In this document: positions 1 to 8,154 of the stretch, in pieces
Numbering within the stretch: the first letter of the stretch is position 1
How the letters are laid out: every line of letters begins with the position of its first letter
IMG/VR virus record: IMGVR_UViG_3300012351_000321
Span: 1-25,905 of that record
Origin: a virus
DNA length: 25,905 nt
Reading direction: 5' to 3' (one strand)
Notes under the pieces: model-generated
What the model saw: the letters and a program-made list of their open reading frames with translations, nothing else
Databases searched by the model: none
What the model was told of the DNA's origin: nothing
Program-made: the position numbers and the translations under genes

Positions 1-939
1 AGTAACTACCGTAGTGTTAGGCTGAATAGGTAGAATATTAAAAGCATGAGTATGGTGAACATCACAGACGTAAATATTACCTTCAACATCTGCTAGACTC
101 CACATTTCTAATCTATTATTATCTTCTATGTTATACTCTGTGTCAAATCCTATATACTTAGGAATACTTGTAGGTTGCATATTTATATTCATATATGGTG
201 TTTCTACAGGCCATTCACCTCTTACAAATCTACCAAACTTTATAAAATCTAATACAGTAGCTCTATATAAAGTTGGATTCTTAAATAGAGAAGCTATATG
301 AATTACTGGGTATATATTCTTTAAAACTCCTTCAGGTTCATCTCTTATAGGATGGTAGTAAGAGTCAAATCCTAATATCTGTGTATTAATATACCCACTA
401 TCTACTCCCAATACCCAACCTCTCCAATCTGTTATTCCGTTATTAACTCCTTCTAAATTTGTTAGAGCATATAGAGAGATCCCACCCATAGAAAGGATGT
501 AGGTGTTACTGTCAGGGATATTAAGATAATTCTCTGTACAATGCTTAATTGCATCTTTAAGCATAGTAGGAGTAATTCCATTCACAGTCTTATTACTATT
601 AATATTAGGTAAATCATTCTTTCCATGTGGTCTACACTTTATAATATTAGCTCTTGATACTTGAGAGTATGGAATTTTAGTATAAGGAAAAAACTCATCC
701 TGTAACCATTTTCCACTAGGACCTATTAGAGGCTGAGGCCTTACACTTTCTGTAACTTCTAACTTCTTTCCACCTTTATATAGATATCCTGTTATCTTTC
801 TACCTTCCTCTTCATGTTCTCCTGGAGCTTGAGCTACTATACATACTTGTGAATCTTTAACGTAATAGTCAGGAGTTATATAAGATGATAAACTATACAG
901 AGGACAAGGCTTACAAGAATCAGGTTTAGGTATAAACAT
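1..939 (-). CDS. Uracil-DNA glycosylase-like domain fused to DNA polymerase (exonuclease start), C-terminus outside window
   Basis: The reading frame is open to the window edge; 313 residues are visible. Residues 1-215 look like a family-4-type uracil-DNA glycosylase. CKPC is at 9-12, AQAPGEHE at 36-43, PLIGPSG at 70-76, NIIKCRPH at 98-105, AIKHC at 130-134 and YHP at 195-197. Cys9, Cys12, Cys102 and Cys134 occupy the four positions that hold the 4Fe-4S cluster in that family. From residue 261, YIGFDTEYN looks like motif I (DxE) of a DnaQ/PolA 3'-5' proofreading exonuclease. A polymerase body therefore probably follows beyond position 1; phage SPO1 DNA polymerase is a known precedent for a UDG-like N-terminus. 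Start chosen at ATG 939, with AAGGAAG just upstream. The motif-1 residue before APG is Gln rather than the Glu of canonical family 4, so glycosylase activity is uncertain. The polymerase assignment is inference from the exonuclease motif. Confidence 0.75.
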   Translation of the reverse strand, partial: MFIPKPDSCKPCPLYSLSSYITPDYYVKDSQVCIVAQAPGEHEEEGRKITGYLYKGGKKLEVTESVRPQPLIGPSGKWLQDEFFPYTKIPYSQVSRANIIKCRPHGKNDLPNINSNKTVNGITPTMLKDAIKHCTENYLNIPDSNTYILSMGGISLYALTNLEGVNNGITDWRGWVLGVDSGYINTQILGFDSYYHPIRDEPEGVLKNIYPVIHIASLFKNPTLYRATVLDFIKFGRFVRGEWPVETPYMNINMQPTSIPKYIGFDTEYNIEDNNRLEMWSLADVEGNIYVCDVHHTHAFNILPIQPNTTVVT

Positions 940-986
940 ATCTTCCTTAGAGCTAAGTTCACATCCTTAGCTCTTTATACAGTTAT

Positions 987-1220
987 TTATATGAGTTTAT
1001 CTATCCTACAGCATTCCTTTGCTATGATCATCTCAATACTCTGTACTAAGACTAACGCTTCTCCTTTTGTCTTACATGTAGCTTTTATTAAAGCTGTTAG
1101 TACGGCTGACACTATTAGATTTACAGGTTCTTTATGTCCAGCTAACAGTACAGCCTTTGTCAAATCTAGCATATCTGCAAACATATTATCTATTCTTGAT
1201 TGAACCTCTTCTTTAGTCAT
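987..1220 (-). CDS. Small hypothetical protein (77 aa)
   Basis: The protein is mostly helical, with an acidic N-terminal third (MTKEEVQSRIDNMFADMLDL) and a hydrophobic centre around residues 30-48 (VNLIVSAVLTALIKATC). The helix is amphipathic rather than a clear membrane span. It starts directly after the stop of the 193-aa gene upstream, with AAAGGGA as ribosome binding site, so it belongs to the replication operon and is followed by the UDG-polymerase gene. No family is recognised. Its position between a replication-associated protein and the polymerase suggests a minor replication partner, but nothing in the sequence proves that. Confidence 0.6.
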   Translation of the reverse strand: MTKEEVQSRIDNMFADMLDLTKAVLLAGHKEPVNLIVSAVLTALIKATCKTKGEALVLVQSIEMIIAKECCRIDKLI

Positions 1221-4055: not shown

Positions 4056-4084
4056 ATTCTACCAGTGATAAAAAAGAATGTCAA
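4056..4084 (-). promoter_or_regulatory. Sigma70-type promoter for the leftward replication operon
   Basis: On the minus strand a perfect TTGACA (4079-4084) is followed by a 17-nt spacer and TAGAAT (4056-4061, 5 of 6 to consensus). Transcription should begin near 4049, giving a leader of about 50 nt before ATG 4000. This is the strongest leftward promoter I can see and probably serves all leftward genes to position 1. Confidence 0.8.
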
Positions 4085-4109
4085 CCATTTTTCACACAAA
4101 GGAGAAAAA

Positions 4110-4424
4110 ATGTTCCAGGAGGAGAAACATAAGACTTTCTACAAATTTATAAAGTTTCCAAGTTTTAAACCCAGTGACTACTTTTTATTTAAATCTATAA
4201 GAGACTACTTCTTTCCATACCATAAAGACTTATCAAATACAAGACAGGTATTTGTATTAAGTATGAGATTTTTATATTCTAAATGGAATGATCCTTCTTG
4301 TAGAGAGAGTATATTAAATTTAGCTGAGATTATAAATCATGAAGATCTTGATAGACAACTAGAAAGGGTAGAGTATAGAACTCTACAAGATATAATTAAA
4401 GATACAGAAATACAAAGACCTTAA
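4110..4424 (+). CDS. Hypothetical protein (104 aa), divergent from replication operon
   Basis: AAAGGAG lies 6 nt upstream of ATG 4110, so I prefer this start to an in-frame ATG at 4065 that lacks a ribosome site and would overlap the leftward promoter. The product is basic and aromatic at the N-terminus (KTFYKFIKFPSFKPSDYFLF, then DYFFPYHKD), then helical and acidic (SILNLAEIINHEDLDRQLER). No family is recognised. No clear plus-strand promoter is visible just upstream. It is the only gene between the leftward operon and the long non-coding leader region. Confidence 0.6.
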   Translation: MFQEEKHKTFYKFIKFPSFKPSDYFLFKSIRDYFFPYHKDLSNTRQVFVLSMRFLYSKWNDPSCRESILNLAEIINHEDLDRQLERVEYRTLQDIIKDTEIQRP

Positions 4425-4740: not shown

Positions 4741-4769
4741 TTGACATATCTCCTCAGAGACGTTATATT
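4741..4769 (+). promoter_or_regulatory. Sigma70-type promoter of the structured leader
   Basis: TTGACA (4741-4746), a 17-nt spacer and TATATT (4764-4769). Initiation near 4776 would give a 5' leader of about 280 nt before the first gene at 5059. Base composition changes sharply here, from very AT-rich upstream to more GC in the transcribed leader. Confidence 0.8.
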
Positions 4770-4775
4770 CTCACT

Positions 4776-5006
4776 ATCCACTCACTATGTACTGTGAGCT
4801 GTCGGTTGGAGTCGAACATATCCCCTAGTTACTGTTTCTTTAGTAGAAGTTATTCTTTCTAGTCGATATGAAACTATACCTAGACTGTGTTATAGGATAG
4901 AATTTCATACCTAGATATAAGAAGTAAAAGCTACTAAAGCGACTGGTATATACAGTTTCTAGGCGATATCTCTTTTCATGTATGCGTATATGAGAAGAGT
5001 CCTGTT
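4776..5006 (+). ncRNA. Candidate structured leader RNA (about 230 nt)
   Basis: The transcript can form a long rod by complementary segments spaced in register: ATATC 4818-4822 with 4965-4969, CCTAG 4824-4828 with 4959-4963, ACTGT 4831-4835 with 4952-4956, CTTTAGTAG 4838-4846 with 4931-4939, TCTAG 4858-4862 with 4911-4915, TATGAAA 4867-4873 with 4903-4909, and CTAT/CCTA 4874-4882 with TAGG/ATAG 4893-4900 around one bulged A. AGTCG 4810-4814 can pair with CGACT 4940-4944, a possible pseudoknot. A CTCAC/GTGAG hairpin (4781-4798) precedes the rod. A 13-bp hairpin capped by UGCG, a UNCG-type tetraloop (4970-4999), follows with no gap. The word TTTCTAGNCGATAT occurs twice exactly 100 nt apart (4856, 4956). 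I cannot assign it to a known RNA class. The 3' limit given is the predicted ribozyme cleavage site. Confidence 0.6.
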
Positions 5007-5051
5007 TATAGGCATTGGTAGCCTATACTGAAGAGTTACCTCGAAACAGGA
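5000..5051 (+). ncRNA. Candidate type III hammerhead ribozyme overlapping a ribosome binding site
   Basis: All conserved hammerhead core positions are present in order. Stem III is UCCUGU 5000-5005 with ACAGGA 5046-5051. The cleavage triplet is GUU 5004-5006. Stem I is UAUAGGC 5007-5013 with GCCUAUA 5021-5027 (7 perfect bp, 7-nt loop). CUGAAGA 5028-5034 matches core CUGANGA. The conserved G10.1-C11.1 pair is G5035-C5042, and GAA 5043-5045 precedes A15.1 (5046), which pairs with U16.1 (5005). Spacing is exact, with no extra nucleotides at the three-way junction. The weak point is stem II, only one secure pair closing a 6-nt loop; a competing GAG/CUC helix would use core G8 and A9. Predicted cleavage is between 5006 and 5007. 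The 3' strand of stem III runs into AGGAG, the ribosome site for the gene at 5059. Confidence 0.65.
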
Positions 5052-5058
5052 GAAGTAT

Positions 5059-5304
5059 ATGTACGACTGTGAAGGAATAAAAATTGATATATCTCTTAGA
5101 TTAGGTATACCTTTTAATATGATAGAAGAGCTTTGGAATGTAGTATTAGACTCTAGAAAGGAAGAACTCTCACATAACTCTCTAAACTATGAAGAGTTGG
5201 AGACTCTATTTAGGTTAAATATGTGGATGCCACAGGATGCTTGGATAGACCCTAATGATCAATTATGGCATGAATGCATGCTTAACGATAGTTTATTTGA
5301 GTAA
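5059..5304 (+). CDS. Small acidic hypothetical protein (81 aa), first gene after the leader
   Basis: AGGAGAAG lies a few bases before ATG 5059 and overlaps the 3' arm of the candidate hammerhead. The protein is acidic, with a helical middle (GIPFNMIEELWNVVLDSRKE) and a Trp-rich end (LNMWMPQDAWIDPNDQLWHE). No family is recognised. Because it heads the rightward early operon and its ribosome site can be masked by stem III, its translation is the most likely to respond to ribozyme cleavage or refolding. A function cannot be given from sequence. Confidence 0.65.
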   Translation: MYDCEGIKIDISLRLGIPFNMIEELWNVVLDSRKEELSHNSLNYEELETLFRLNMWMPQDAWIDPNDQLWHECMLNDSLFE

Positions 5305-7739: not shown

Positions 7740-8154
7740 TATTACAGTAATACTCATTGAGTAGGAAGTGAGGTAGAGTATTGAGGCTTGAGGGCTATCC
7801 TACGATACAAGAGAACTAGAGAGGAAAGACTCTATATATCTATATATCATAGAGAGAGAATAGAAATGTGTTGAAGTGGAGTAATATACTGGGGGAGTAT
7901 GTAGAGTAGAGGTACCTCTACAATAGAGGTAGTAATTAAAGAAGGTATCTAATAGAACTTAATAGAACTATTAGATACCTCTAGAAAGTACAAGATCTAA
8001 TTAAACTCTACCTTTAAGGATCTCTCTAATAGATATAAGCTTGTCCAGGGAACCCATAGAGACCATATATCCCCCCTTACCCCCCCAGTACCACACACAT
8101 AACACATATATCTATACACACACATATATCTATACATACCTACTATAATTTTTT
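7740..8154. other. Non-coding zone between converging operons, rich in palindromes and C-tracts
   Basis: I find no convincing gene here. It holds AGTATTAC-A-GTAATACT (7738-7754) right at the end of the preceding gene. A 16-bp perfect palindrome, GTAGAGGTACCTCTAC, lies at 7906-7921. A 13-bp perfect hairpin has arms 7943-7955 / 7968-7980 and a 12-nt loop. C6-TTA-C7 lies near 8070-8086, an 18-bp tandem repeat at 8103-8138, and a T8 run near 8148-8155. Both flanking gene sets end here, so transcription may stop in it. However, none of the hairpins has the T-run directly after it. Pausing, origin or packaging-related functions are open alternatives. Confidence 0.55.
8103..8138. repeat. 18-bp tandem repeat, two copies
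   Basis: CACATATATCTATACACA (8103-8120) is followed directly by a copy differing at one position (8121-8138). The array lies just right of the C-tracts and left of the T8 run. Two copies only, so slippage or an iteron remnant are both possible. Confidence 0.75.

Follow-up and report, generated by a model that had tools for sequence, protein, structure and literature searches.

A predicted type III hammerhead ribozyme, clamped by a loop-loop pseudoknot, in phage leader RNAs

Hammerhead ribozymes cleave RNA to leave a 2',3'-cyclic phosphate end and a 5'-OH end. Type III hammerheads are described from viroids, satellites, bacteria and phage, and the available portion of Perreault 2011 calls their role in phage and bacterial genomes unclear, reports stem I-stem II pseudoknots in about 40% of its collection, prophage genes flanked by hammerheads and a C3-G8 to U3-A8 change in nature, and gives one case of a single-pair stem II, a type II construct that depended on its pseudoknot (PMC3088659). 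Extra pairs in stem I or stem II lowered activity in a construct of the same study. A pseudoknot form, credited to Weinberg 2015, has been crystallised (8YDC): A9/G12 and G10.1-C11.1 make up its entire stem II and lie under a pseudoknot of four Watson-Crick pairs with A:A and G:A ends, next to a helix IV hairpin and an A-rich linker, according to the accessible part of PMC11300833. In engineering, RiboJ carries a hammerhead before the ribosome binding site (RBS) together with an added 23-nt hairpin; it normalises the 5' UTR and, in the excerpt available of PMC7536230, is said to raise mRNA stability. The ribozyme class, its occurrence in phages, its pseudoknots and its use beside the RBS in engineering are already known.

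The locus described here lies in a virus record of 25,905 bases, the whole of which was analysed and is called the window. It encodes an Erf-like annealing protein, a major head protein and a terminase-like protein with 26% identity to one annotated large subunit, and shares 7,896 identical bases with IMG/VR contig 3300012349_000008. Because that contig (45,733 bases) begins and ends around window positions 7896-8085, the genome is probably circular or circularly permuted, at about 45.9 kb. Genes run on the minus strand before about 4000 and on the plus strand from 5059, with a long stretch between the two blocks; the features found there are collected in Table 1.

Table 1. Predicted features of the locus in the window and, in the last three rows, of a second RNA in relatives.
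Feature	Position	Strand	Evidence or remark
Conserved ORF in the long stretch between gene blocks	4065-4424	+	
Sigma-70-like promoter, TTGACA-17-TATATT	4741-4769	+	11/12 consensus matches
Structured leader RNA, common to two relatives (L027, G002)	4776-4999	+	fold z; three-sequence consensus
13-bp hairpin abutting the ribozyme on its 5' side	4970-4999	+	compensatory changes in stem
Putative type III hammerhead ribozyme	5000-5051	+	pairing scan, family alignment, covariation, held-out model
Stem III 5' strand, pairing with 5046-5051 (6 bp, counting U16.1-A15.1)	5000-5005	+	sequence, pairing scan, alignment
Cleavage triplet GUU (G5004-U5005-U5006); predicted cut 5006/5007	5004-5006	+	sequence, core register
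Stem-loop I: 7 bp (5007-5013 with 5021-5027), 7-nt loop AUUGGUA (5014-5020)	5007-5027	+	scan, relatives, covariation
GGU in loop I, predicted partner of ACC 5038-5040 (loop-loop pseudoknot)	5017-5019	+	covariation in relatives
Core CUGAAGA, C3 to A9	5028-5034	+	sequence; alignment A4
Stem II element: single pair G5035-C5042 (G10.1-C11.1), 6-nt loop UUACCU containing ACC 5038-5040	5035-5042	+	
GAA (G12, A13, A14; 5043-5045) and stem III 3' strand ACAGGA	5043-5051	+	
Shine-Dalgarno (SD) AGGAG, upstream of ATG 5059	5048-5052	+	four of five bases within stem III 3' strand
First operon gene, 81 aa	5059-5304	+	
Second insert RNA, L027	1931-2000	+	
Second insert RNA, L068 (G002)	335-404	-	
Second insert RNA, apparently also L073	about 893-992	-	

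By its sequence, 5000-5051 reads as a complete type III hammerhead ribozyme. The window has the core CUGANGA and GAA with A15.1 paired to U16.1, a NUH triplet adjoining stem I, a loop-closed stem I and an open stem III, and both stems covary in relatives. A preliminary description of this DNA had placed every conserved core element in exact register and the cut after 5006; sequence and scans confirmed the first, and the register of the core supports the second as the predicted site. These elements are shared with the type III hammerheads of viroids, satellites, bacteria and phage, while a stem II of one pair, a fixed 7-bp stem I, a 7-nt loop and a 3-bp loop-loop pair differ from what the text of Perreault 2011 describes (PMC3088659). 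A stem II of at least two pairs, a usual criterion for type III, is absent in the window, where it consists of G5035-C5042 only. This length is not strictly defining, since one pair sufficed in the active case of Perreault 2011 and is all that 8YDC has, in the parts of both sources considered (PMC3088659, PMC11300833). Like 8YDC, the window is predicted to have a pseudoknot that stands in for helix II above a one-pair stem II; unlike 8YDC, it makes three pairs with its own 7-nt stem I loop, and hairpin IV and the A-rich linker within helix I are absent, stem I being a plain 21-nt hairpin.

A pairing-aware scan that asked for CUGANGA, GAAA, a standard stem II closing pair and NUH, with at least 5 pairs in stem I and at least 4 in stem III, gave a single match in the window, at 5000-5051. 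The motif is short and the window is 26 kb long, which would leave room for a chance match; against this, the same scan found 0 matches in 300 first-order Markov shuffles (7.77 Mb), a family of such elements exists, and a model from which the window was withheld also recognises it. Chance is already refuted as an explanation, and its remaining probability is negligible. The preliminary description had proposed a covariance search with Rfam models. Rfam returned no hammerhead for the window at gathering thresholds or for 4900-5150 at E<=10; the covariance model from 42 relatives without the window gave 67 bits at 5000-5051 (E 1.6e-20, E-values being rough by the tool's own statement). Rfam likewise returned no hammerhead on 12 relative loci at gathering thresholds and on 12 at E<=2. 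Its silence says little, because at gathering thresholds it also misses a second hammerhead in L020 that has a 4-bp stem II. A similarity search of 50,697 phage records gave no match for the 1,071-bp region and, for the short element, only matches at E 6-8. A match in Purky (H2, L064) was rejected: it consists of core-like letters at a gene boundary and scored 11.6 bits with the family model (E 0.54, partial). Among 299 bacterial genomes, the family model was positive in one, the seed genome itself.

The family was gathered with three patterns. The first (core plus CAGGAG) fetched 21 viral stretches, of which 15 were full hammerheads; L007, L009, L012, L017, L019 and L023 were not and were dropped. 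The second fixed the loop bases (GGTA, ACC) and left stems I and III free, and 38 of its 41 stretches passed a looser pairing scan; L057 failed that scan, and L036 and L045 were set aside for an extra base in stem I. With this pattern five bacterial contigs were also found, one with the family geometry (L063, an Aliivibrio MAG), while L060 passed the looser scan only. The third pattern held constant GTC, the core, the letters of G10.1 and C11.1, GAAAC and the length of each loop, and imposed nothing on stem I or on the bases of the two loops. Of its 40 stretches, 36 had a perfect 7-bp stem I; L087, L089, L090 and L093 failed and were discarded. Together, the fetched loci gave 50 distinct elements with the family geometry, window included, selected by seven stem I pairs, a standard stem II closing pair and at least three stem III pairs. 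The stem II element had 8 nt in 48 of them, 7 nt in L005 and 9 nt in L010. An alignment of 43 elements (A4) left out these last two for their stem II length, and five with an identical 52-nt stretch. In A4 the core was invariant except for N7 in 43/43 sequences, the core having been a search condition. Stem I paired in 100% of cases by choice, because elements were chosen for seven pairs; the fair test of stem I is the third-pattern set, where it was left free. All 50 elements had a NUH triplet (GUC 34, GUU 9, AUC 6, CUC 1), although the searches themselves required U, not-G and the core.

As a separate observation, several genomes hold more than one hammerhead: L004, L006, L020, L047 and perhaps L053. 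The extra copies lie at L004 1456 +, L006 3402 +, L020 7239 + and L047 7230 -, some with other forms of stem II, and G016, a 195-kb contig, has three family-model matches within 1 kb (120389-121371 +). Such multiple hammerheads recall the prophage arrangements in the accessible portion of Perreault 2011 (PMC3088659).

The three pairs between loop I and loop II were predicted from the sequence of the window and could be followed through the family. The usual loops are AUUGGUA (loop I) and NNACCN (loop II), and in 48 elements the facing triplets were GGU/ACC (32), AGU/ACU (7), CGC/GCG (3), UGU/ACA (2), CGU/ACG (1) and GGC/GCC (1), with CGU/ACU unmatched in 2. Since second-pattern elements had GGTA and ACC fixed, the test rests on the third-pattern set: three Watson-Crick loop-loop pairs were present in 34 of the 36 rows with a 7-bp stem I, and in 15 of these 34 the triplets differed from GGU/ACC. 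The two rows that break one pair, L086 and L094, resemble each other upstream. Over the whole structure of A4, 96.9% of cells were paired, compared with 67.4% in shuffles and 34-49% when the structure was slid by 1-3 columns, and the covariation score was 0.765 compared with 0.178; neither value was reached in 500 shuffles. Two weaker measures gave smaller margins: 14 pairs changed on both sides vs 11.3 in shuffles (reached in 6/500), and 43 further pair types vs 38.8 (31/500). Within the pseudoknot, column pairs 18-41 and 20-39 changed on both sides in 11 and 4 sequences, respectively, and 19-40 was invariant.

The stem II element itself started with G and ended with C in 50/50 elements. A second pair was possible in 26 of the 50, the window not being among them, and within A4 it was paired in 25 sequences and unpaired in 18. 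The preliminary description had cautioned that so short a stem II could make activity slow or dependent on loop contacts or a ligand. Of this, a loop contact is predicted and covaries, which would explain how a one-pair stem II can work, so that slow activity or a ligand need not be assumed. The fixed 7-bp stem I may reflect a geometric limit that comes with a one-pair stem II, by analogy with the construct in which added stem I or stem II pairs lowered activity (PMC3088659, in the portion available).

The same data bear on whether 5000-5051 is an inactive, hammerhead-shaped RNA, a cluster of hairpins near the RBS that serves, for example, as a protein-binding operator. Such a reading gains from the minimum-energy fold, which favours a competing GAG/CUC hairpin that would draw G8 and A9 out of the core. 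Yet an operator would not need the catalytic bases, which the window keeps; the loop-loop pair covaries, and the NUH triplet is present in all 50 elements, within the search conditions given above. I consider an inactive RNA very improbable, and self-cleavage of 5000-5051, as judged from its sequence, very likely.

Upstream, promoter-like matches were not enriched in the region as a whole (7 found vs 9.0 expected from shuffles). A comparable TTGACA-17-CATAAT could be read in L027, and from the promoter in Table 1 transcription would start near 4776. The RNA from 4776 to 5006 folded with a z of -3.58, better than all 200 shuffles, and the leader consensus of the window, L027 and G002 reached -47.06 kcal/mol with 56 pairs, 18 of them with compensatory changes. 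The claim that the ribozyme stands at the start of an operon and releases upstream RNA is supported at the level of sequence, and this upstream RNA is a conserved structured leader; since its structure is conserved, cleavage would free a conserved RNA. The leader 4776-4999 is possibly a functional RNA itself.

One reading of these results is that the chief product of the ribozyme is the 3' end of a functional leader RNA (4776-5006), with the trimmed mRNA as a by-product. Conservation of the leader structure in three phages, with its compensatory pairs, argues for it, as does the slot after the leader, which persists in relatives where another RNA takes the place of the hammerhead (see below). 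Across 48 of the 50 leaders, however (two were too short; 40 shuffles each), the median z was -1.57 and only 11 reached -3 or lower, so a structured leader is a feature of the window's phage group and some others and not of the whole family. The position on the RBS side, in contrast, is retained across the family, and leader release as the main role is possible but doubtful. In the L004 group, the element is found within a lengthy intergenic region, the opposite strand of which carries terminase genes (small subunit in L004, large subunit in L018), and, in L004, it heads genes including an ATPase and an HNH endonuclease; a common structured leader was not found in seven sequences of this group. 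Separately, the 230 nt upstream of the hammerhead fold unusually well in L058, L031, L038, L040, L047 and L050 (z -5.5 to -9.4), and L058 shows a row of short perfect hairpins at about 970-1250 -, much of that stretch being an open frame.

Downstream, an SD-bearing start, counted if its ORF had at least 45 aa or ran off the contig, lay within 90 nt in 33 of the 50 elements, and in 29 of these 33 the start codon came 5-19 nt past stem III. The start assigned to L042, 82 nt away, is probably wrong: a nearer ATG follows ATAGGAG, with an ORF below the 45-aa limit. The first genes downstream were mostly small. Ten of them had no family in PHROGs, nor did the 219-aa first gene of L091, and the 81-aa protein of the window had no Pfam or PHROGs family.

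The preliminary description had proposed that stem III masks the RBS. This fits the window, where cleavage lowered the modelled cost of opening the SD (5.9 kcal/mol became 3.35 when the full leader was included, and 4.7 became 3.4 when 60 nt of leader were), but over the 33 elements the mean change was close to zero (-0.15 kcal/mol for the 12 in which the SD overlaps stem III, -0.09 for the 21 in which it does not). The modelled costs argue against masking as a function common to the family, although the test is weak because the folding program omits the tertiary fold; for the phage of the window, easier access to the SD would be a likely bonus.

A rival reading takes the element for a translation switch: before cleavage the SD would be buried in stem III, and the cut, which may be regulated, would make it accessible. 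In its favour are AGGAG within the stem III 3' strand of the window and the drop in opening cost there. Overlap was also seen in 9 of the 20 elements that were collected with no requirement for an SD, and these nine are not independent, because eight carry an identical CCUGU/ACAGG stem. Further support comes from the two relatives L027 and G002, which retain a CUG(U)/(A)CAGGAG clamp although the insert it encloses is a different one, and from L077, which clamps AUAGGAGU. On the other side, only 12 of 33 elements overlap, 10 of which also came from the pattern requiring CAGGAG, and the other 21 have none; the mean opening-cost change is near zero with or without overlap; and a fast ribozyme would leave no time for a switch. 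A switch as the role of the element is rather unlikely.

A clamp of this kind is known from another RNA. Mu-gpT-DE RNA (RF03012) has, like the window, a short clamp whose 3' strand CAGGAG precedes AUG, with no hammerhead core in the part of its alignment shown, and it matched 5000-5061 weakly (E 4.4, 11.7 bits vs gathering 49). A true Mu-gpT-DE RNA was observed at L021 285-337 - (56.5 bits), about 11 kb from the family hammerhead of L021; its clamp over the SD resembles stem III of the window.

The slot that the ribozyme occupies was then compared among relatives. L027 and G002, whose terminases are ~75% identical to the window's, are the two nearest with a readable leader; both keep the leader, its final hairpin and the CUGU...ACAGGAG clamp, and in neither was the hammerhead found. 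Their clamp encloses another conserved RNA, UAAUGUG-hairpin-GGUUCACAGUCC-AACACAGAUGA. Insert and clamp are identical between the two at 67 of 73 columns, and the leaders at 139 of 253. A comparable stretch in L073, closed by another outer stem (pairing drawn by hand), seems to be the same RNA. The consensus fold of the three copies was no help (covariation term +3.11), because the program misaligned L073. At E<=10, the one Rfam model to match the L027 region was that of an unrelated lncRNA (14.3 bits vs gathering 70, E 0.4); no homologue of the insert was found in 398 genomes of G008's phylum, and no convincing match in phage records. In a wider scan for the insert, L106 and L107 were rejected as resembling coding sequence, and L070 was judged a likely chance match.

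A more distant relative, L077 (45% identity in the leader-side protein), has a divergent hammerhead at 4057-4108 +, at an unchanged position in the leader and with an 8-bp clamp over AGGAG. Its core, UUGAUAA, carries U3 and A8 instead of C3 and G8, matching the natural change in the portion of Perreault 2011 available (PMC3088659), and its 10.1-11.1 pair is not standard. The held-out model gave it 19.4 bits (E 2.4e-6) in an unfiltered search of 301 bases only, and did not report it at default filters over six sources. Phage homologues in which the motif is not conserved had been named beforehand as evidence against a ribozyme. L027 and G002 are such homologues, but many other phages conserve the motif and L077 keeps a variant of it.

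Taken at its widest, the comparison would mean that the leader holds an interchangeable self-cleaving slot, filled by the hammerhead in the window, by the U3-A8 variant in L077 and by an undescribed class of self-cleaving ribozyme in L027 and G002; this is speculative, and I would regard it as improbable at present. The 81-aa protein had no significant match in L027, L068 (the G002 stretch) or L077. Since the leader is common to L027 and G002 and the first gene is not, the module would serve the message rather than one gene.

From the predicted fold, its covariation, the place beside the RBS and the conserved leader I infer cleavage, its timing, the start site and the effects on mRNA life and translation as follows. 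Transcription would begin near 4776 and pass through the structured leader and then the ribozyme, whose fold would be held by the 3-bp contact of loop I GGU with loop II ACC. The ribozyme would cut at the predicted site, probably while transcription continues, and release a leader RNA of ~231 nt with a 2',3'-cyclic phosphate end. The operon mRNA would be left with a 5'-OH and a stem-loop I cap, 52 nt before ATG 5059. The main effect would be a uniform, decay-resistant mRNA 5' end without the bulky leader, as in a natural RiboJ, with which the element shares its place in the 5' UTR ahead of the RBS; RiboJ is engineered, whereas the leader of the window is long and conserved (PMC7536230, in the excerpt available). 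This joint reading, a loop-loop clamped, self-cleaving type III hammerhead that trims the leader to give such an mRNA start, is probable as a whole. Trimming of the 5' end as the main role, taken alone, is moderately favoured, and the estimates for trimming, leader release and an SD switch overlap.

Searches of open literature brought up no description of a type III group in phage leaders that combines a stem II of this kind with a loop-loop clamp of 3 bp; that such elements were sighted before as single sequences is quite possible. The elements form a compact, recognisable group spread over many contigs of uncultured phages, steadily placed just 5' of the RBS and following one folding rule (7 bp in stem I, one or two pairs in stem II, a 3-bp clamp between the loops); Rfam models missed every member tested. 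With position and folding rule this well defined, the role of the group can be tested, both through mapping of 5' ends in metatranscriptomes and with simple reporters. In addition, the slot in which relatives have swapped the hammerhead for another RNA is a place to look for a new ribozyme.
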